NCBI RefSeq assembly: GCF_019623905.1
Contig: NZ_CP069370.1
Coordinates: 930,001-994,000, forward strand
DNA length: 64,000 bases
Direction of reading: 5' to 3'
From: Neotabrizicola shimadae
Lineage (GTDB): Bacteria; Pseudomonadota; Alphaproteobacteria; Rhodobacterales; Rhodobacteraceae
Shown one piece after another: positions 7,953 through 58,676 of the stretch. Position 1 is the stretch's first letter; every line of letters starts with the position of its first letter. The position numbers and the translations under genes were made by a program. The notes under the pieces were generated by a model that was not told the DNA's origin, made no database searches, and worked only from the letters and a program-made list of their open reading frames with translations.

Positions 7953-7976
7953 TCTGCCGTGGCCAGGAGCCGAAAC

Positions 7977-9152
7977 ATGCCTGTAAGAAACCGCTTTGCC
8001 GAGTTGCTGCACGAGATCACCGAGTGGCGGCGGGACATTCATGCGCATCCGGAGCTGATGTTCGACTGCCATCGCACGGCGGCCAAGGTCGCCGGGCTTT
8101 TGCGCGACTTCGGCTGCGACGAGGTGGTTGAAGGCATCGGGCGGACGGGTGTGGTCGGCGTGATCCGGGGACGGGCGCTGGGATCGGGCCGGGTCGTCGG
8201 CCTGCGCGCCGACATGGACGCGCTGCCCATCACGGAAATCACCGGGCTGCCCCATGCCAGCACCGTGCCGGGCAAGATGCATGCCTGCGGCCATGACGGA
8301 CATACGGCCATTCTTCTGGGTGCGGCGAAACACCTGGCCGAGACGCGCAATTTCGACGGCAGTGTCGTGGTGGTGTTCCAGCCGGCGGAGGAGGGCGAGG
8401 CCGGGGCTCTGGCGATGATCCAGGACGGGCTGATGGACCGCTTCGGCATCGACGAGATCTATGGGCTGCACAATGCGCCTGGCCTTCCTGTCGGGTCCTT
8501 CGCCACGCGGTCCGGGCCCTTGCAGGCCTCGGCCGACGAGTTCCGTATCGTCGTGACGGGGCGGGGCGGTCATGCGGCCGAGCCGCACCGGGCGGTGGAT
8601 ACCACGCTGGCGGCCTGCCAGATTGTCGTTTCGTTGCAGTCGATCGTGGCGCGGAATGTCGATCCGCTGCATTCGGTCGTGGTGACGGTGGGCACCTTCC
8701 GCACCGACAGCGGCGCGTCGAACATCATCGCGCACCGCGCCGAGATGGCGGGGACGGTGCGCTGCCTGGATGCCGGGATGCGCGATCTGGCGGAAGAACG
8801 GGTGAAGGCGGTGGCGGTTTCGACCGCGGCGGCCTTTGGCGCGGAGGCCGAGGTGATCTATGAGCGCGGCTATCCGGTCACGGTCAATGCGGCCGAGAAC
8901 ACGGGTCATGCCGTTGCGGCGGCTGCCGCCGTGGTCGGGCCGGACCGGGTGGACGGCAACACGCCACCGATCATGCCGGCCGAGGATTTCAGCTATATGC
9001 TGGAGGCCCGGCCGGGCGCCTATGTCTTTCTGGGCAATGGCGACAGCGCCCAATGCCATCATCCGGCCTATGAATTCGACGATTCCGCGATTCCGGTCGG
9101 GTGCAGCTATTTCGTGACGCTGGTCGAACAGCGCCTGCCCCTGCGATCCTGA
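7977..9152 (+). CDS. M20D amidohydrolase (hippurate hydrolase/N-acyl amino acid hydrolase type), copy 1
   Basis: A 391-residue cytoplasmic metallohydrolase that cleaves the amide bond of N-acyl amino acids or related conjugates. The dinuclear metal site is recognisable: C104, H106 and H109 in MHACGHDGH, E138-E139 in FQPAEEGE, H165 in IYGLHNAPG and the C-terminal HHPAYEFDD. The frame opens at 7959 but the ATG at 7977 gives MPVRNRFAELL, matching the start of its neighbour MPVKNRFAELL. It is followed after 13 bases by a closely related second copy, which points to a tandem duplication. Expected substrates are hippurate-like or N-acetyl amino acids; specificity cannot be read from sequence. Confidence 0.9.
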   Translation: MPVRNRFAELLHEITEWRRDIHAHPELMFDCHRTAAKVAGLLRDFGCDEVVEGIGRTGVVGVIRGRALGSGRVVGLRADMDALPITEITGLPHASTVPGKMHACGHDGHTAILLGAAKHLAETRNFDGSVVVVFQPAEEGEAGALAMIQDGLMDRFGIDEIYGLHNAPGLPVGSFATRSGPLQASADEFRIVVTGRGGHAAEPHRAVDTTLAACQIVVSLQSIVARNVDPLHSVVVTVGTFRTDSGASNIIAHRAEMAGTVRCLDAGMRDLAEERVKAVAVSTAAAFGAEAEVIYERGYPVTVNAAENTGHAVAAAAAVVGPDRVDGNTPPIMPAEDFSYMLEARPGAYVFLGNGDSAQCHHPAYEFDDSAIPVGCSYFVTLVEQRLPLRS

Positions 9153-9165
9153 AAGGACCCCGCCC

Positions 9166-10332
9166 ATGCCCGTGAAGAACCGTTTCGCCGAGCTTCTGCC
9201 CGAGATCACCGCCTGGCGGCGGGATTTCCACGAGAACCCCGAGCTTCTGTTCGAGGTTCACCGGACGGCGGGCCGGGTGGCCGAGCTGCTGCGCGGCTTT
9301 GGTTGTGACGAGGTGGTGGAAGGGATCGGGCGCACCGGCGTGGTGGGCGTGATCAAGGGCAAGACCGATACCGCGGGCCGCGTCATCGGCCTGCGCGCCG
9401 ACATGGACGCCCTGCCGATCATCGAGCAGACGGGCCTGCCCTATGCCAGCAAGACGAAGGGCAAGATGCATGCCTGCGGCCATGACGGGCATACGGCGAT
9501 GCTTCTGGGAGCGGCGAAGTACCTGGCCGAGACGCGGAACTTCGACGGCACGGCGGTGGTGATCTTCCAGCCGGCGGAAGAGGGCGGCGGCGGCGGGCGC
9601 GAGATGGTGAAGGACGGGATGCTGGATCGGTGGGGCATCCAGGAGGTGTACGGGATGCACAACATGCCCGGCATCCCTGTGGGTCATTTCGCGATCCGGC
9701 CGGGCGCGATGATGGCCGCGGCGGACCAGTTCGACATTACCATCACGGGGAAGGGCGGCCATGCGGCCAAGCCGCATGACTGCGTGGATACCACGGTGGT
9801 CGCGGCGCATGTGATCGTGGCGCTGCAGACCATTGCCAGTCGCAACGTGGACCCGCTGAAGCAGGTGGTGGTCTCGGTCTGCGTGGTGGAAACCGACAGC
9901 CCCGCGCACAACGTGATTCCCCAGGTGGTGAAGATGAAGGGCACCGTGCGGACCATGGATCCGGCGGTGCAGGACTTTGTGGAGCGCCGCATCGGCGAGA
10001 TCGTGCAGGGCACCTCCATGGCGCTTGGGGCGCGCGGCGAAGTGGCCTATGCGCGCGGCTATCCGGTGACGATGAATACGCCCGAGAACACGGATTACGC
10101 GGCCAGGGTGGCCAAGGCGGTGTCGGGTCATGTGGACACGGACACCGCGCCGCTGATGGGGGCCGAGGATTTCAGCTTCATGCTGAACGAGCGCCCCGGC
10201 GCCTATATCTTCCTGGGCAATGGCGACACCGCGATGGTGCACCACCCGGCCTACAATTTCGACGACAGTGCCATTCCCTTCGGATCCAGCTGGTATGCCG
10301 GCATGGTCGAGGCGCGGATGCCGGCGGCCTGA
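9166..10332 (+). CDS. M20D amidohydrolase (hippurate hydrolase type), copy 2
   Basis: A 388-residue paralogue of the preceding gene with the same metal-site motifs (MHACGHDGH, FQPAEEG, YGMHNMPG, HHPAYNFDD), similar along its whole length. The copies differ in the likely substrate-lid segment (for example DQFDITITGKGGHAAKPHD here against DEFRIVVTGRGGHAAEPHR in copy 1), which suggests different substrates rather than simple dosage. It is separated from copy 1 by 13 bases with a GAAAGGA Shine-Dalgarno sequence and is the last gene of the rightward group, ending just before a strong hairpin. Confidence 0.9.
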   Translation: MPVKNRFAELLPEITAWRRDFHENPELLFEVHRTAGRVAELLRGFGCDEVVEGIGRTGVVGVIKGKTDTAGRVIGLRADMDALPIIEQTGLPYASKTKGKMHACGHDGHTAMLLGAAKYLAETRNFDGTAVVIFQPAEEGGGGGREMVKDGMLDRWGIQEVYGMHNMPGIPVGHFAIRPGAMMAAADQFDITITGKGGHAAKPHDCVDTTVVAAHVIVALQTIASRNVDPLKQVVVSVCVVETDSPAHNVIPQVVKMKGTVRTMDPAVQDFVERRIGEIVQGTSMALGARGEVAYARGYPVTMNTPENTDYAARVAKAVSGHVDTDTAPLMGAEDFSFMLNERPGAYIFLGNGDTAMVHHPAYNFDDSAIPFGSSWYAGMVEARMPAA

Positions 10333-10339
10333 AACGGAA

Positions 10340-10365
10340 CGGGCCGCCCTTCGAGGGGCGGCCCG
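10340..10365. terminator. Hairpin between convergent genes (probable terminator)
   Basis: A perfect 10-bp stem, CGGGCCGCCC (10340-10349) with GGGCGGCCCG (10356-10365), closes a TTCGAG loop. It lies 8 bases after the stop of the second amidohydrolase and 22 bases beyond the end of the leftward DUF1127 gene. Read leftward it is followed by TTCCGTTTC, a weak T-rich tail. It probably ends transcription from both sides. Confidence 0.65.
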
Positions 10366-10387: not shown

Positions 10388-10558
10388 TCAGGCGGCCTTG
10401 CCATAGACGGCTTCCCAGGCGATGCGGTCGGCGTCTTCGGGAAAGATCCCGATGTCGGCGGCCTCGCGGCGGGTCATGCCGGCAATCTCGTCGCGGATCT
10501 GCCAGTAACGGCTGCGGCGGCTGGCGGCTTCCTTCAGGTTGTGGATCACGGTCAACAT
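10388..10558 (-). CDS. DUF1127 (YjiS-like) small arginine-rich protein, copy 1
   Basis: A 56-residue basic protein beginning MLTVIHNLKEAASRRSRYWQ, with the DUF1127 pattern of a short N-terminal helix, an R/Y-rich turn, then ...DIGIFPEDADRIAWEAVYG. The longer frame upstream is rejected because homology begins at this methionine and a Shine-Dalgarno-like AAAGGAC precedes it. In other alphaproteobacteria DUF1127 proteins have been linked to small-RNA and phosphate or carbon control through RNA contact (established for Agrobacterium). It is paired with a second DUF1127 gene immediately upstream, from which it is probably co-transcribed. Confidence 0.85.
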   Translation of the reverse strand: MLTVIHNLKEAASRRSRYWQIRDEIAGMTRREAADIGIFPEDADRIAWEAVYGKAA

Positions 10559-10627
10559 GTCGTTCGTCCTTTGGTTCGGGGGCGGGGCGGCCATTTGGCC
10601 GGGCCCCGCCATCATGGGGATCGGGCG

Positions 10628-10795
10628 TCAGGCCCGGGCATAGACGGCGTCGCGCGCGATGCGCTTGGCGTCGGCGGGGTCAAGGCCGAGGTCCAGCGCC
10701 AGGTCGTGCGGCAGCCGGGCAATCGCGTCGCGCGTCTGGACATAAAGAGCCCGGTTGCGCGCGGCGGCCTTCAGCTTTTCGATCACGGTCATCAT
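10628..10795 (-). CDS. DUF1127 small arginine-rich protein, copy 2
   Basis: A 55-residue gene that is easy to miss. Translation gives MMTVIEKLKAAARNRALYVQ, then TRDAIARLPHDLALDLGLDP and finally ADAKRIARDAVYARA. It shows the same pattern as its neighbour: ten N-terminal residues MxTVIxxLKxAA, a short basic turn, then a C-terminal LGLDPADAxRIAxxAVY. An AAAGGAC Shine-Dalgarno sequence lies about ten bases upstream, so the first ATG (or the adjacent second one) is the start. It is the promoter-proximal member of the tandem pair, and a LacI-type palindrome lies about 95 bases upstream. Function is probably regulatory, through RNA or protein contact, by analogy with the family. Confidence 0.85.
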   Translation of the reverse strand: MMTVIEKLKAAARNRALYVQTRDAIARLPHDLALDLGLDPADAKRIARDAVYARA

Positions 10796-10888
10796 GGTCT
10801 GTCCTTTCGTATCCGCAGCGGTGCCAGGACCCTTCCCGGCTGTCTTCCATCAGTGTTTCCCGCCGCGTGACCAAGATTTGGGACGGAA

Positions 10889-10902
10889 TGATACCGCTAA
10901 CA
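10889..10902. promoter_or_regulatory. LacI-type palindromic operator upstream of the DUF1127 pair
   Basis: The sequence TGATACCGCTAACA differs from the perfect palindrome TGTTAGCGCTAACA upstream of edd at only two positions and keeps the central CG typical of LacI-family operators. It lies about 95 bases upstream of the first DUF1127 gene, and a TTGTTA (leftward) that could serve as a -35 overlaps it. Family assignment is inferred from the palindrome; the regulator gene is not in the window. Confidence 0.55.
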
Positions 10903-10954
10903 ACGCCCAAGCGCGCCGCTCCGCCATGCGCTCAGTGCATGGCTAGTGCGGGGG

Positions 10955-13507
10955 TCAGGCTTTGCCGAGCAGGCGAAGGCGCCGAGGACGGGCCGGGGGA
11001 AGGTTGGCGAGGTCCAGCTTGACGCCACGGCTTGCGGCGTTGCGGCCGACCGCTTCGGTCAGGGCAGGATGGCGGCCCAGAAGGTCGATGAACCTTGCCT
11101 CGTCCAGGGTGAGAAAGGTGCAATGCGTCACGGTCGTGATGCGTGCGCGGCGGGGTGTCCGTGTCAGGATCGAGAGTTGGCCGAACATCTCGCCGCGGCC
11201 CAGAAGCACGCGCTGGCCGACCAGGGACTTCGATCCCGCGCGCAGCACTTCGACCGCGCCAGAAGCGATGAAATAGACCTCGGTTGGAATATCTTCTTTT
11301 CTGAACAGGACTTTGCCGGGCGGCGCGTAGACCGTGCGCAGCGCCTTGGCAAGCCGGGCGCGGTCGGCGGGTTCCATGTCTTCGAACAATGGGAAGGCCG
11401 CCACGATATCGGTTTTCTGCAGGGCAAGGTCCAGGCGGGGGCGCTGCGCCAGTTCGCGGCGGCGCCGGTTCAGGTCGGTGAACAGCGAAGCTCTGAGCTC
11501 GGGTCCGATGAGCCCGTCTTCGGTGAGGTCTTCGTATTCCTTCACCTCTTCTTGCAGCGAGATGCGGCGGATCAGGCGGCGCTCCAGTTCTTCGGCATGG
11601 CCGGGAAATTGCAGGCGCAGGCCCTCCAGCTCCTTGTCAGTGTCTGTGACGCGCTGGTCCACAAGGTCGTGTAGCAGGGCTGCAACACGTTTGCCGTGAA
11701 TTCGCACGATCCGGCCTTCGACAAAGCCATGCAGCTGCCGCAACACTTGAAGGCGGGCGATCAGCATCTCGAACCGGTCGCCGCTGAGTCGCGACAGAAG
11801 CCGCCCCCACCGAAGCCGGTTGTGCAGCGTTCCGGCCAGCGGCATCAGCCGGTCCGGTCGCAGCGCGGCGCGGGCGGCGGTGCGATAGCCGTGCCGGCCG
11901 GAAAGCCGCGTCGCCTCGACCAGGCGGTCGGCGTCAGCCAGCATCCGTTCGGCCAGATGGGCGGGCAGGATCTCGTCTCGGAAGGCCGCAAGGATGACTT
12001 CACGCTCATGCCCCGCGAGCGCGATGAGGCCCAGGGTCACGCGGTCGCGGTCGAGGATGTCCTGCGCCTCGTCGGCCCGCTCCACCGCCTTGGCCAGCCG
12101 GTCGCCATAGCGCACCGCCTCGTCACGGACGATGGCGGGCGTCAGCGACAGGCTTTTCGTGGTGTCGGCCACCGTCTCGCGCACGGATTGCAGCGCCACG
12201 GCGACCACCTGGTCGCCAAGCGCGCGATCCAGCCGCGACAGCTTGTCGAGGCCGAGCCTGGAGATGACCCACCGCAGGGTGGTGCCCTGCACCAGCAGGG
12301 TGAAGAGGGTGAAGCCGGTGGCGATGATACCGACCTGACGCTTGACCTCGACCGGGACGCCAAAGTCCTCGGTCACTGCAAGCGCAAGGGCGAGCGTGAC
12401 GGCGCCGCGCAACCCGCCCCAGAGGATGGCAATGCGGTAGGGCCGTTCCACCTTTGGAGACAGCCGGAGCGCGGTCAGAAGCGGCAGTATCCCAAACAGG
12501 ATCAGCGCGCGCGCGACGAAGGCGGCGGCGGCGGTGATCAGGACCAGGCCCAGGTCGGCAAGGTGAACGTCCCGCATGAGCCGCGGGATGAGGAGCGCGG
12601 CCATGATGAAGATGAGTGACCCCGCCCAGTAGGCCAGGAGGTCCCAGGTGTCGTGCATCCGTTCGGCGGCGGGGGGCGACATGCGTCCGGCCGACAGGAA
12701 GTTCAGCGTCATGCCCGCGGCGACTACGGCCACCACGCCCGAACTGTCCAACTGATCTGCCAGCAGGAAAGCGGCGTAGGGCAGGGCGATGGAAATGGAA
12801 ATCTGCGCCAGCGGCCAGCCGCCAATGCGGCCGATCAGCGCCATGGCGAGCCGCGCGACCAGCCAGCCGATGACGGCGCCGCCAAGGATCAGGCCCGGAA
12901 AACGCAGGAGCGCAGTTCCGATGGCGGGCTCGGTCTCGCGCAGGAGAACATCGGTCAGGAACACGCCGAACAGCGCGATGGCGGCGGCGTCGTTCAGGAG
13001 GCTTTCACCTTCGACGATACGCGCCAGCCGCTGCGGGGCGGGTGTGGCGCGGAAGATCGAGACCACGGCCGAGGGGTCGGTGGTCGAGACGATGGCACCG
13101 ATCAGCAGGCAGGCGATCAGAGGCAGGCCCGAGAAGGGGTAGAGCGCGAAGCCGATGACCCAGGTGGCCACGGCCACGGCGACAACGGCCAGCACCAGGA
13201 TCGGCACCCAGTCGTCCATGATGCGGCGCAGATTGAGCGTCAGCGCAACCTGGAAGATCAGGGTTGGCAGGAAGACATAGATGAAGACCTGGGAGCCCAC
13301 CGGAAAGGTGAGGATGGCCAGCGCAACCTCGTTCAGCGCGTCGGTATAGGTGGTGAAGTAGAACCAGCCAGCGCCAAGGCCGAGCGCGATGCCGATGGCG
13401 GCCAGCACAACCGAGACGGGCAGGCGCAGCCGGGCCGCCAGCGGCTCGGCCAGGCCGATGACGACGAAGAGGCCCGACAGGACGGAAAGAAGCAGCGCAA
13501 TATCCAT
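10955..13507 (-). CDS. Na+/H+ antiporter (CPA1 family) with C-terminal cyclic-nucleotide-binding-type domain
   Basis: An 850-residue inner-membrane antiporter. The N-terminal half (about residues 1-410) has some twelve hydrophobic segments and the CPA1 motif STTDPSAVVSIFRA near residue 150. A long cytoplasmic helical region follows, and about residues 690-820 form a cNMP-binding-type beta-roll (FPLFEDMEPADRARLAKALR, PPGKVLFRKEDIP, YFIASGAVEVLRAG, RGEMFGQLSILTRTPRRARI). This architecture matches the SOS1/NhaP-like exchangers. The start is MDIALLLSVLSG; nine further in-frame codons upstream are not conserved-looking. Its likely role is sodium and pH homeostasis, with the C-terminal domain sensing a ligand or regulating gating. 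It stands alone between the DUF1127 pair and gap. Confidence 0.88.
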   Translation of the reverse strand: MDIALLLSVLSGLFVVIGLAEPLAARLRLPVSVVLAAIGIALGLGAGWFYFTTYTDALNEVALAILTFPVGSQVFIYVFLPTLIFQVALTLNLRRIMDDWVPILVLAVVAVAVATWVIGFALYPFSGLPLIACLLIGAIVSTTDPSAVVSIFRATPAPQRLARIVEGESLLNDAAAIALFGVFLTDVLLRETEPAIGTALLRFPGLILGGAVIGWLVARLAMALIGRIGGWPLAQISISIALPYAAFLLADQLDSSGVVAVVAAGMTLNFLSAGRMSPPAAERMHDTWDLLAYWAGSLIFIMAALLIPRLMRDVHLADLGLVLITAAAAFVARALILFGILPLLTALRLSPKVERPYRIAILWGGLRGAVTLALALAVTEDFGVPVEVKRQVGIIATGFTLFTLLVQGTTLRWVISRLGLDKLSRLDRALGDQVVAVALQSVRETVADTTKSLSLTPAIVRDEAVRYGDRLAKAVERADEAQDILDRDRVTLGLIALAGHEREVILAAFRDEILPAHLAERMLADADRLVEATRLSGRHGYRTAARAALRPDRLMPLAGTLHNRLRWGRLLSRLSGDRFEMLIARLQVLRQLHGFVEGRIVRIHGKRVAALLHDLVDQRVTDTDKELEGLRLQFPGHAEELERRLIRRISLQEEVKEYEDLTEDGLIGPELRASLFTDLNRRRRELAQRPRLDLALQKTDIVAAFPLFEDMEPADRARLAKALRTVYAPPGKVLFRKEDIPTEVYFIASGAVEVLRAGSKSLVGQRVLLGRGEMFGQLSILTRTPRRARITTVTHCTFLTLDEARFIDLLGRHPALTEAVGRNAASRGVKLDLANLPPARPRRLRLLGKA

Positions 13508-13532
13508 GCCGCACCATAACCAACTGGTACCC

Positions 13533-13573
13533 AAGAAAAACAGGCGGGCCGGTCACGTTTCATGACCGGCCCG
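13533..13573 (-). terminator. Intrinsic terminator after gap
   Basis: An 11-bp perfect stem, CGGGCCGGTCA (13545-13555) with TGACCGGCCCG (13563-13573), has a 7-base loop. Read leftward it is followed by CCTGTTTTTCTT, a five-T run after a short spacer. It lies 33 bases beyond the stop of the leftward gap gene and ahead of the antiporter start, so it separates the two transcription units. Confidence 0.75.
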
Positions 13574-13606: not shown

Positions 13607-14608
13607 TCAGATCAGCTTGCCCATGGCGACGGCGGTGTCGCTCATCCGGTTGGAGAAGCCCCATTCATTGTCGTACCAGGACAGGATCGACACGAAGGTG
13701 CCGTCCATGACCTTGGTCTGATCCATATGGAAGACCGAGGAATGGCTGTCGTGGTTGAAGTCGGACGAGACGTTCTTGAACATGGTGTAGCCGAGGATGC
13801 CCTTCAGCGGGCCATCGGCGGCTTCCTTGATCGCGGCGTTGATCTCGTCGACCGAGGTGGCACGCTTGGCGATGAACTTCAGGTCCACGACCGAGACGTT
13901 CGGCGTGGGCACGCGGATGGCGAAGCCGTCGAGCTTGCCCTTCAGGTCGGGCAGCACCAGACCCACGGCCTTTGCGGCGCCGGTCGAGGTGGGGATCATG
14001 GACAGCGCCGCGGCGCGGGCGCGGTACAGGTCCTTGTGCATGGTGTCGAGCGTGGGCTGGTCGCCGGTGTAGGAGTGGATGGTGGTCATCATCCCCTTCT
14101 CGATCCCGATCACCGAGTTCAGCACCGAAGCCACCGGGGCAAGGCAGTTGGTGGTGCACGATGCGTTGGACACCACGATGTCGTCCTTGGTCAGCGTGGT
14201 GTGGTTTACGCCGTACACGATGGTCTTGTCCGCGCCGTCGCCGGGGGCCGAGATCAGCACGCGCTTGGAGCCGTTCTCCAGGTGGGGCAGGCACTTTTCC
14301 TTCGAGGTGAAGATGCCGGTGCATTCCATGACGACATCGACATTGGCCCAGGGCAGGTCGGCCGGGTTCTTGATGGCGGTCACCTGCATGGGGCCACGGC
14401 CAACGTCGATCCAGTCGGGGCCGGTGGTGACCGTCACGGGGAAGCGGCCGTGAACCGAATCGAAGCGCAGCAGATGCGCGTTGGTCTCGACCGGGCCGAG
14501 GTCGTTGATGGCGACAACCTCGATGTCGGTGCGGCCCGACTCGATGATGGCGCGCAGCACGTTCCGTCCGATCCGGCCAAAGCCGTTGATGGCTACCTTG
14601 ACGGTCAT
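13607..14608 (-). CDS. gap: Glyceraldehyde-3-phosphate dehydrogenase, type I (copy 1, NAD-type residue)
   Basis: A 333-residue cytoplasmic enzyme that interconverts glyceraldehyde 3-phosphate and 1,3-bisphosphoglycerate. It has the NAD fold start [16 protein letters not shown], the catalytic cysteine C151 in [12 protein letters not shown] and the assisting histidine H178 in [10 protein letters not shown]. At the cofactor-selective position it has D36 (VVAINDLGP), the aspartate that normally binds the NAD ribose. The open frame upstream is rejected because the fold begins at this methionine, preceded by AAGGGAG. A LacI-type palindrome lies 45 bases upstream, and a second gap gene follows upstream on the same strand, about 175 bases away. 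Confidence 0.95.
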
Positions 14609-14652
14609 GTCCACTCCCTTAGCTGGGCGCCCGCGACTCGCGGCGCCGTGTG

Positions 14653-14666
14653 TGATAGCGCTAACA
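14653..14666. promoter_or_regulatory. LacI-type palindromic operator upstream of gap copy 1
   Basis: The sequence TGATAGCGCTAACA differs from the edd operator TGTTAGCGCTAACA at one position. It lies 45 bases upstream of the gap start, close enough to overlap the core promoter, although I cannot identify a convincing -10. It indicates that copy 1 has its own regulated promoter despite following a second gap gene on the same strand. Confidence 0.65.
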
Positions 14667-14783
14667 GCCGCAGTGCGGCCCAAAATGCAACCAGAGTTTG
14701 CCGCGACGGCACCGGAAAGGCCAGCATTTCAGGAGGACAAATGGGCGCGGGTCTGGCCCGCGCCTGCAACGGGGCTCTCGGGG

Positions 14784-15788
14784 CTAGTTCAGCAGGCGCC
14801 CCATCACGCCGGCCACGTCGGCCATGCGGCAGGAGAAGGCCCATTCGTTGTCGTACCAGGCCAGCACACGCACGGTGCGGCCGTTCACCACCTTGGTCTG
14901 GTCGGGGGCGAAGATCGAGGAATGAGTGGTGTGGTTGAAGTCGATCGAGACCTTGTGTTCCGGGTCATAGGCCAGGACCATGCCCATGTAGCCCGCGGCA
15001 GCTTCGCGCACGACTTCGTTCACGTCCTTCACGGTGACGCTGCGGGCGGCGACGAAGGTCAGGTCCACGGCCGACACGTTCGGCGTGGGCACGCGGATGG
15101 CCGAGCCGTCGAGCTTTCCCGCCAATTCCGGCAGAACCTCGCCGATGGCCTTGGCCGCGCCGGTGGTGGTGGGGATCATGGCCATGGCGGCGGCGCGGGC
15201 GCGGTAGAGGTCGCCGTGACGGCGGTCCAGGGTGGACTGGTCGCCGGTGTAGGAATGGATCGTGGTCATGATGCCGGACTCGATGCCGATGGCATCGTTC
15301 AGCACCTTGGCCAGCGGTGCGAGGCAGTTGGTGGTGCAGGAGCCGTTCGAGACGACGTGATGGTCGGCGGTCAGGGCGCGGTGGTTCACGCCATAGACCA
15401 CCGTCTTGTCGGCGGCCTTGGCCGGAGCCGAGACCAGCACGCGGCGGGCGCCGCGGCCAAGATGCACGGCGGCCTTGGCCCGGTCGTTGAACTTGCCGGT
15501 GCATTCGAGCACTACGTCCACGCCGCCCCAGTCCAGTTCCTCGGGATTGTAAGTGGACATGACCCTGATCGGGCCGCGTCCCAGGTCCAGCGCGCCGTCC
15601 TTCACCTTGACCGTGCCGGGAAAGCGGCCGTGCACGCTGTCGTATTTCAGCAGGTGGGCGTTGGTTTCCACCGGGCCGGTGGCGTTGATGGCCACCACCT
15701 GCACGTCATTGCGGTTCGATTCCGCGATATGGGCGAGGGTGCAGCGGCCGATGCGGCCGAAGCCGTTGATCCCGACGGTGATGGTCAT
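14784..15788 (-). CDS. gap: Glyceraldehyde-3-phosphate dehydrogenase, type I (copy 2, NADP-type residue)
   Basis: A 334-residue GAPDH with the start [16 protein letters not shown] and the catalytic cysteine C151 in [12 protein letters not shown]. Where copy 1 has N-D-L in the cofactor loop this copy reads VVAINATGPVETN: the ribose-binding aspartate is replaced by A36 and followed by T37, as in NADP-dependent GapB-type enzymes, so it probably uses NADP(H) and works in the gluconeogenic or reductive direction (inference). The two copies are about the same length and are alignable throughout. Two LacI-type half or full palindromes lie about 85-115 bases upstream. Upstream in-frame codons (24) were rejected. 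Confidence 0.95.
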   Translation of the reverse strand: MTITVGINGFGRIGRCTLAHIAESNRNDVQVVAINATGPVETNAHLLKYDSVHGRFPGTVKVKDGALDLGRGPIRVMSTYNPEELDWGGVDVVLECTGKFNDRAKAAVHLGRGARRVLVSAPAKAADKTVVYGVNHRALTADHHVVSNGSCTTNCLAPLAKVLNDAIGIESGIMTTIHSYTGDQSTLDRRHGDLYRARAAAMAMIPTTTGAAKAIGEVLPELAGKLDGSAIRVPTPNVSAVDLTFVAARSVTVKDVNEVVREAAAGYMGMVLAYDPEHKVSIDFNHTTHSSIFAPDQTKVVNGRTVRVLAWYDNEWAFSCRMADVAGVMGRLLN

Positions 15789-15870
15789 GCGCGTCTCCGA
15801 CTCTCTGTTCCCAATCCCGATAGCCTCATGCTGCGGGCGCGAAAAGGAGGAAAACGACATGATTTCCGTA

Positions 15871-56813: not shown

Positions 56814-58619
56814 TCAGACCACCAGCGCGCCGCCAGTGGTGGCGGGGCCGGCGTAGCGGCGGAAGACCTCGAACAACTCGCGGCCAAGCCCATGGCCATT
56901 GGCCGAGAGGTCGGCGGTGACGGCGGGGCGGTGATCGAAATCCTCGGCGAAGACGGTCAGCGTGCCGGCATCGGCATCGAGCCGGATGAGGTCGCCGTCG
57001 CGCAAGCGTGCCAGCGGGCCGCCGCAGGCAGCTTCGGGCGAGACATGGATGGCGGCGGGCACCTTGCCGGAGGCGCCGGACATGCGCCCATCGGTGACGA
57101 GGGCCACCTTGAGCCCGCGGTCCTGCAGGACGCTGAGCGTGGGGGTGAGGGAGTGCAGTTCCGGCATCCCGTTGGCTTGCGGCCCCTGGAAGCGGACGAC
57201 GACGATGCAGTCCGAGGTGAACTCTCCCGCCCTGAAGGCGCGCTTTACCGCCTCCTGGTCGTGGAAGATGCGGGCGGGGGCTTCGATCACATGGCGTTCG
57301 GGGGCGACGGCCGAGACCTTGATGACGCCGGTGCCGAGGTTGCCGGCCAGGCGCTTGAGCCCGCCGATGGGCTGGAACGGTTCGGTCGCGGGGCGGAGGA
57401 TCTTGTCGTTGAGCGTGGTGGCGGGGCCGGGTTCCCAGGCGAGCTTGCCCGCCTTGAGCTTCGGTTCCTGCCGGTAGAGCGTGAGGCCGTCGCCCGCGAC
57501 GGTGCGGGCGTCGTCGTGCAGGAGGCCCGCGTCGAGAAGCTGGCCGATCATGTATTGCAGGCCGCCCGCGGCGTGGAAGTGGTTCACGTCGGCGAGGCCG
57601 TTGGGATAGACCTTGGCCATCAGCGGCACGACGTTGGAGATTTCGGCGAAGTCTTCGAGGTCGAGGTGGATGCCGGCGGCGCGGGCCATGGCGGGCAGGT
57701 GCAGCACGAGATTGGTGGAGCCACCCGTCGCCATGAGGCCCACGATGCCGTTGACGAAGGCGCGTTCGTCGAGGATCTCGCCCGCCGGGCGGTAATCGTT
57801 GCCAAGCGCGGTGATGGCGGCGGCGCGGTCAACCGCGGCGGTGGTCAGCGCCTCGCGCAAGGGCGTGTTCGGGTTGACGAAGCTGGCGCCGGGCAGGTGG
57901 AGTCCCATGAACTCCATCAGCATCTGGTTGGTGTTGGCGGTGCCGTAGAAGGTGCAGGTGCCGGGGCCGTGGTAGCTGGCCATTTCGGCGGCCATCAGCT
58001 CCTCGCGGCTGGCCTTGCCTTCGGCATAGGCATTGCGGACGCGGGATTTCTCGTCGTTGGGGATGCCCGAGGTCATGGGGCCCGCGGGGACGAAAACTGC
58101 GGGGATGTGCGAGAAGGTGGCGGCGGCCATGACGAGGCCGGGCACAATCTTGTCGCAGACGCCGAGGTAGAGCGAGGAGTCGAAGGTGTTGTGGCTGAGG
58201 GCCACGCCTGCGGCGAGCGCGATCACGTCGCGGGAGAAGAGCGAGAGCTCCATGCCCGCCTGGCCCTGCGTGACGCCGTCGCACATCGCGGGAACGCCGC
58301 CGGCGACCTGGGCCGTGGCACCGGCCTTGCGGGCGGCTTCGCGGATGATCCTGGGGTAGTCCTCGTAGGGCTGGTGGGCGGAGAGCATGTCATTGTAGGC
58401 GGTGACGATGCCGATGTTGGGCAGCCGGGCCTGGGCGAGGGTGTCCTTGTCCTGGCCCATCGCGGCGTAGGCATGGGCCTGGTTGCCGCAGCTGAGATGT
58501 GCGCGGGCGGGGCCGGAGCGGGCGGCGGCGGCCATGCGGTCGAGGTAGAGGCCGCGGCTGGCTTCGGAACGGGCGCGGATGCGGGCGGTGACACGGGCGA
58601 TGGTGGCGTTCAGGGCCAT
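56814..58619 (-). CDS. edd: Phosphogluconate dehydratase
   Basis: A 601-residue iron-sulfur enzyme of the IlvD/Edd family that dehydrates 6-phosphogluconate to KDPG. Features include [20 protein letters not shown] near the start, [20 protein letters not shown], cluster ligand region [40 protein letters not shown], and [20 protein letters not shown] at the C-terminus. The start [15 protein letters not shown] is 54 codons into the open frame. A strong promoter and operator lie just upstream. It forms the ED operon with eda; glucose-6-phosphate dehydrogenase (zwf) is not in the window. Confidence 0.97.
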
Positions 58620-58647: not shown

Positions 58648-58676
58648 AGTATAGCAGGCATTGTTAGCGCTAACAA
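58648..58676 (-). promoter_or_regulatory. edd promoter with LacI-type operator over the -35
   Basis: Read leftward, TTGTTA (58671-58676) and TATACT (58648-58653) are separated by exactly 17 bases, a good sigma-70 arrangement. The perfect 14-bp palindrome TGTTAGCGCTAACA (58662-58675; 16 bp with the flanking T and A) covers the -35. The start codon of edd is about 30 bases downstream of the -10. The position suggests repression by a bound LacI-family regulator. Confidence 0.8.

Follow-up and report, generated by a model that had tools for sequence, protein, structure and literature searches.

Divergent DUF1127-like mini-proteins often linked to gap are probable members of a CceR-type central-carbon regulon in Neotabrizicola shimadae and related Rhodobacteraceae

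Do two very small genes that follow one another in the genome of Neotabrizicola shimadae belong to the central-carbon regulon of a LacI-family regulator? The window that we analyzed is a stretch of 64,000 nucleotides (contig NZ_CP069370.1, positions 930,001 to 994,000), and a sequence-only reading of it had placed a tandem of DUF1127 mini-proteins under a carbon-type operator about 95 bases upstream. In several bacteria, DUF1127 proteins have been reported to influence stress, photosynthesis, the use of carbon and the uptake of phosphate; as switches acting on them, the passages that we consulted give the LysR-type VtlR and heat-shock sigma factors (PMC11323563, PMC5507952, PMC12595884, PMC12501420, PMC10253847, PMC7204398, PMC7486931). 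CceR, a LacI-family protein, has been described as sensing 6-phosphogluconate and acting on glycolysis and gluconeogenesis genes in Rhodobacteraceae (PMC11323563, PMC5507952). The literature on DUF1127 and on CceR that we covered, mostly titles and the beginnings of abstracts, yielded no link between DUF1127 genes and LacI/CceR control; regulon tables and the main CceR target list lie outside that scope and could already contain such genes.

Both open reading frames of the proposed tandem of 55- and 56-residue proteins are present on the minus strand (Table 1). The gene at 10628-10795 had been taken as the second of the two, and the direction of transcription makes it the first; a ribosome-binding-like AAAGGA lies upstream of it. 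The assignment to DUF1127 held in part: the match to the Pfam profile PF06568 spans nearly the whole domain in each protein (profile positions 2-36 of 37 in the first, 3-36 of 37 in the second), whereas neither score (14.3 bits, E 0.035, and 21.8 bits, E 1.6e-4, respectively) reaches the gathering score of 23.3 bits. Because both proteins fall below this cut-off, we call them divergent DUF1127-like, and for the same reason the two could stay unannotated. The branch to which they belong is alignable and conserved (alignments A1-A3), and tandem copies occur in 10 of 90 loci of this short branch. The sister species (G001) has both genes, the second being 84% identical; codon differences between the two species were 4 synonymous and 2 non-synonymous in the first gene, and 11 and 9 in the second. 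An AlphaFold model of the second mini-protein consists of three helices (mean pLDDT 88.2), and no significant match to this model was found among solved folds (best E 4.6). Convergent with the pair are two tandem M20-family peptidase/amidohydrolase genes (7959-10332).

Table 1. Features in and around the mini-protein locus, with positions counted in the window
Feature	Position	Strand	Description and basis
GC-rich hairpin	10340..10365		Probable terminator shared by the pair and the convergent M20 gene, between which it lies; deduced from sequence
Second mini-protein gene	10388..10558	-	56 aa, divergent DUF1127-like; open reading frame, PF06568, AlphaFold model
First mini-protein gene	10628..10795	-	55 aa, divergent DUF1127-like; open reading frame, PF06568, alignment A1, sister copy
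Predicted weak -10, CAAATC	10875..10880	-	17 bp from the predicted -35; deduced from sequence
Predicted operator, CceR/GntR type (LacI family), TGATACCGCTAACA	10889..10902		Pattern matches, family-wide conservation, comparison with G001
Predicted -35, TTGTTA	10898..10903	-	Overlaps the operator; deduced from sequence and from the matching layout in relatives
Second dyad ATGCGCTCAGTGCAT (WTGCN7GCAW, LysR-box-like)	10926..10940		Sequence, family spacing, alignment with G001
Na+/H+ exchanger with cNMP-binding domain	10955..13534	-	Between gap and the pair; domain match
gap (type I GAPDH)	13607..14608	-	TIGR01534, 416.3 bits; synteny
Operator TGATAGCGCTAACA	14653..14666		In front of gap; pattern match
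Perfect-palindrome operator TGTTAGCGCTAACA	58662..58675		Upstream of edd (56826-58607, minus strand); pattern match

The palindrome TGATACCGCTAACA was found where it had been proposed and starts 93 bp before the first ATG of the pair. When up to three mismatches were allowed, the window contained six strand-matches at four places, two palindromes being counted twice, against 1.03 expected, and none of 100 shuffles of the window reached six. Throughout the genome, the pattern TGWTANCGNTAWCA with at most one mismatch occurs at 12 places, compared with 0 for the reversed pattern used as a control. Eight of these places fall at gap, edd, zwf, two PfkB-type sugar kinases, one LacI-family gene and two DUF1127 loci, namely the window pair and C1:492829; of the other four, one is at a gene resembling that of ribosomal protein L13 and one falls within a reading frame that resembles PHA synthase, both recognized by eye in the translation, and two are at unnamed places. 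An off-centre variant of the palindrome, TGATACCTTTATCA, was noticed at C1:1021495 (L043), before the L13-like gene. Between the window and the sister species, the operator keeps 13 of its 14 bases, and, as judged by eye, the operator and a second dyad form conserved islands in a diverged promoter.

Conservation across the family was measured with a weight matrix trained solely on 19 edd-promoter sites; for this training 30 edd loci were taken among the 39 genomes over the family cut-off, and in 19 of them the 200 bp preceding the match contained a site. Orthologues of the mini-proteins were collected by protein similarity with alignment A1, whose query rows were picked by hand for length and similarity after the presence of sites had been seen, rows without a site being kept; it matches in 254 of 296 family genomes. 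The short set comprises the best-ranked locus per genome, with one genome per genus, from the top 90 of these 254, second copies being skipped. For the named set, which partly overlaps the short set, the best 80 were taken out of 127 relatives. A set of 50 canonical DUF1127 genes was made up of 30 top loci and 20 chosen by hand from further down the same list; a few members of this set adjoin CcsR matches.

A site with a matrix score of at least 8 was present within 300 bp upstream in 66 of the 90 short-branch orthologues, and 59 of these 66 sites lie 25-100 bp before the gene. Widening the search to 650 bp raised the count to 67, so that the operator was not found in 24 loci within 300 bp and in 23 within 650 bp. 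The second gene of the window (L128) was counted as a miss because its 300 bp upstream stop short of the operator. In the named set, the operator was present in 68 of 80 loci (control, 0 of 79). Control stretches elsewhere gave 0 of 89 and 0 of 90 for short-branch loci and 0 of 50 for canonical loci; 200 matrices with permuted half-sites gave a mean of 1.9 and a maximum of 15 of 90, and 50 mono-nucleotide shuffles of the sequences a mean of 1.4 and a maximum of 6 of 90. None of the 50 canonical DUF1127 genes carried the operator at the same score and distance, and the notion that all DUF1127 genes are targets was therefore rejected. The sequence-only reading had called for a comparison across related genomes and had set lack of conservation before orthologous genes as its refutation; the palindrome is kept upstream of most orthologues in both sets, and the comparison did not refute the reading.

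Which protein might read this operator? The genome contains 14 LacI-family genes, and within 500 bp upstream of the HTH match only one of the 14, L109, has the operator, with a score of 21.0 (next best, 3.3). The closest curated family to L109 is GntR, at 291.6 bits and below the cut-off of 400. An operator precedes the regulator's own gene in 24 of the 30 best-matching regulator loci, L109 included, and a match to L109 at E<=1e-60 was found in 266 of 296 family genomes. Sites were present in 0 of 6 loci of genomes without the regulator and in 85 of 114 others (Fisher p 4e-4), a count that takes in both edd and mini-protein loci, includes the 19 training edd sites and lets some genomes enter twice. 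Presence of the regulator was read by eye in this comparison, with the weak-match genomes G002, G016 and G254 counted as present; G030, in which the regulator is absent, has a weak edd match at -277, beyond the 200 bp counted. Because of its regulon content and its family, we take L109 to be the putative orthologue of CceR. Taken together, the agreement of the operator with those of targets in the same genome (12 places vs 0), its retention in 66 of 90 orthologues and the co-occurrence of the regulator support the proposed link, and the placement of the pair in the central-carbon regulon of a LacI/CceR-type regulator is, as far as sequence evidence goes, strongly supported. The pair is probably expressed according to the carbon source being used.

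The surroundings of the mini-protein genes are conserved as well. In 51 of 90 loci of the short set, 63 of 80 of the named set and 0 of 50 canonical loci, the DUF1127-type gene is preceded in the same orientation by gap, at a median distance of about 210 bp, and coaD, named from a CTP_transf_like match, is convergent downstream in 58 of 90, 59 of 80 and 0 of 50, respectively. The flanks covered 1-2 kb, so more distant neighbours were missed. In the window, the start codon of gap was set from the family match, whose start lies at residue 26-29 of a longer open reading frame, and the exchanger gene separates gap from the pair; a homologue of this exchanger precedes the mini-protein gene in the same orientation in 5 of 90 and 9 of 80 loci, counts that take in the locus of the window. 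Two tandem type I gap paralogues occupy 13607-15860 on the minus strand, and all 114 of 114 gap neighbours in relatives match the first of the two better.

Viewed in isolation, the palindrome before the pair amounts to one 14-mer within one intergenic region and might have arisen by chance, but the family-wide matrix controls and the comparison of the two species led us to reject this explanation, to which we give practically no credence. That the operator acts on the adjacent gap gene, or is a remnant of gap control, would fit the frequent position of a mini-protein gene after gap; we nevertheless reject this explanation as very improbable. Wherever a gap-linked locus has the operator (93 of 93 cases), it lies after the gap stop codon, the gap gene of the window has a separate operator at 14653, and the operator of the pair overlaps a predicted promoter that faces the mini-proteins. 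Moreover, sites were present in 38 of 50 gap-linked loci of the short set and in 28 of 40 without gap within 1 kb (p 0.63), and in 54 of 61 and 14 of 19, respectively, in the named set (p 0.14). Since the operator is about equally common with and without a nearby gap gene, it goes with the mini-protein gene.

It is also conceivable that the operator is real and that a LacI-family regulator different from the CceR orthologue reads it: close paralogues among the 14 LacI-family proteins could share half-sites, and L109 was matched to R. sphaeroides CceR by regulon content and family. We consider this unlikely, because L109 is the only one with the operator upstream of its own gene, because zwf, edd and gap carry the same motif, and because the operator is missing from the six loci in genomes without an L109 match, a small class in which training sites were counted and presence was judged by eye. 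We thus favor, as a likely account drawn from these comparisons, that the pair represents a divergent, often gap-linked DUF1127-like branch that has its own promoter and is under a CceR-type LacI-family regulator.

How such control might work is suggested by the layout of the promoter. In other genera, the operator was seen by eye over the -35 element, over the -10 element or just above the -35 element. Because the operator of the pair overlaps the predicted promoter, this geometry suggests repression as the likeliest direction of control; the direction could nonetheless go either way, since the position of the operator varies and CceR has been reported to activate gluconeogenic genes besides repressing glycolytic ones (PMC11323563). 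The second dyad starts 38 bp upstream of the operator start on the strand of the gene, and 38 bp is the commonest dyad-operator spacing in the family, with 52 pairs (next, 39 and 47 bp with 10 pairs each). The centre of the dyad in the window is situated about 65 bp ahead of the predicted start, a position at which LysR-type activators commonly bind; the dyad is perhaps read by a LysR-type protein. Sequences of the form WTGCN7GCAW are common to short and canonical DUF1127 promoters, being found within 250 bp upstream in 68 of 90 and 38 of 50, respectively (approximate dinucleotide shuffles, mean 4.0 and maximum 8). VtlR was not accepted as the owner of this dyad, as its geometry differs from that of the VtlR box, given as GCAT-N3-TG-N3-T or CAATGCAGCCATGCA (PMC7486931, PMC12595884).

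The other operator-bearing DUF1127 gene of the genome is followed by a match to Rfam CcsR1 (90.1 bits). This ccaF1-CcsR-type locus (L361/L002, C1:492698-492918) has a CceR-like site, TGTTAGGGGTAACA, with a non-canonical centre. Some longer DUF1127 genes linked to CcsR do have an operator-like site. Of 30 CcsR loci examined, that of the N. shimadae genome included, 10 have no DUF1127 open reading frame upstream; an operator-like site (score at least 8) was present in 12 of the 20 that do. Nine of these 12 sites have a CCC centre, which makes CceR binding less certain there, and may overlap the -10 element. CcsR matches were obtained in 126 of 150 genomes at E<=0.001 and in 7 of 150 over the Rfam gathering cut-off. 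In R. sphaeroides, ccaF1 has been reported to have an RpoHI/RpoHII promoter (PMC10253847). Given the CCC centres, the mostly sub-gathering CcsR matches and this reported RpoHI/RpoHII control, we treat the CcsR-linked operator as a lead.

A further element, CTGCN3GCAG, which we take to be the consensus of PhaR, the PHB regulator, was located in the 250 bp ahead of the gene for 44 of 90 short and 10 of 50 canonical DUF1127 genes; 20 approximate dinucleotide shuffles gave a mean of 1.0 and a maximum of 3, and other stretches 0 and 1 of 90. The exact longer form TGCTGCN3GCAGCA occurs at three places in the genome (C1:152248, C1:255350 and C1:2481028), where it precedes a phasin-like gene (Phasin_2 at 20.8 bits, short of the 24.9 cut-off), a canonical DUF1127 gene and one that encodes a PUA_2-type domain. 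Allowing up to one mismatch raises the number of places to 41, compared with 8 in the control. The promoter of the window pair has no PhaR-type element, and the element therefore stays outside our main claim.

What the two proteins do can be approached by analogy, and the RNA binding that the sequence-only reading had ascribed to them would be one possibility. R. sphaeroides CcaF1, a DUF1127 protein, has been reported to bind RNA and to be co-transcribed with the CcsR sRNAs (PMC10253847). The short DUF1127 proteins (SDPs) of Agrobacterium have been reported to act through protein-protein interaction with PhoR, both they and E. coli YjiS being described as interacting with PhoR and affecting pst genes, and DUF1127 proteins from other species complement in the same work (PMC12501420). 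At the pair (L007), no CcsR-type sRNA matched Rfam at the gathering threshold, and none of 170 stretches located 150-450 bp after the start, searched on the gene strand only, contained the motif CUCCUCCC; within this scope, a small RNA at the pair was rejected. Counted by hand, the net charge of the second mini-protein is close to zero, and the branch has a median of +2. Partner proteins such as a sensor kinase, rather than RNA, might then be what the pair binds, a view favored by the PhoR interaction and cross-species complementation of the SDPs, by the low charge of the second protein and by the lack of a CcsR sRNA and of CUCCUCCC, and opposed by the RNA binding of CcaF1, which comes from the same bacterial family. 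To us these arguments appear evenly balanced, and either kind of partner would be compatible with CceR-type control of the pair.

Under the explanation that we favor, the CceR-type operator would overlap the core promoter of the pair, and the regulator bound to it would block this promoter during growth on gluconeogenic substrates. Sugar flux would raise 6-phosphogluconate, the effector reported for CceR, upon which the regulator would leave and the promoter fire, probably with the help of an activator at the LysR-box-like dyad. The mini-proteins might then act post-transcriptionally, either on RNA, as CcaF1 does, or on a protein partner, for instance a sensor kinase, in the manner of the SDPs, and so tune physiology to glycolytic growth. 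This step of protein action, which is argued from analogy, is the least certain part of the explanation.

A wider proposal, which we find rather doubtful and offer tentatively, is that DUF1127-type mini-proteins form the post-transcriptional arm of the carbon switch throughout Rhodobacteraceae, with both the gap-linked branch and CcaF1/CcsR under a 6-phosphogluconate-responsive CceR-type regulator and with a PhaR-type element that reports stored PHB added at many promoters. If this were true, one sugar signal would set enzyme synthesis together with the tuning of RNA or of a sensor kinase. For the locus itself, the operator and the linkage to gap mark a widespread mini-protein branch, and a conserved LacI-type operator combined with this linkage points to a simple signal that can be tested, the flux of sugar acids. 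LacI-type control could explain the carbon phenotypes of DUF1127 mutants.

The arrangement resembles three known systems. It shares with the CceR regulon of R. sphaeroides and Paracoccus denitrificans the LacI-family regulator, the bacterial family, the Entner-Doudoroff and glycolysis targets and the palindromic operator, but the targets named in the parts of those reports that we compared are metabolic enzymes, with no DUF1127 target among them (PMC11323563, PMC5507952). Like the CcaF1-CcsR (CIN1) locus of R. sphaeroides, it encodes small DUF1127-type proteins, and the locus with CcsR1 in the same genome as the pair has an operator-like site; unlike in that system, the proteins of the window pair are shorter and below the Pfam cut-off, and their genes lie after gap with one gene between and without CcsR at the gathering threshold. 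The Agrobacterium SDPs and the DUF1127 genes under VtlR in Brucella and Agrobacterium likewise concern very small DUF1127 proteins that are connected with carbon use, although the geometry of the dyad is different here and a LacI operator is not described in the available parts of those reports (PMC7486931, PMC12595884, PMC12501420). VtlR, a LysR-type protein, activates the DUF1127 genes in Brucella and Agrobacterium, and the window pair likewise has a LysR-box-like dyad in front of its promoter.
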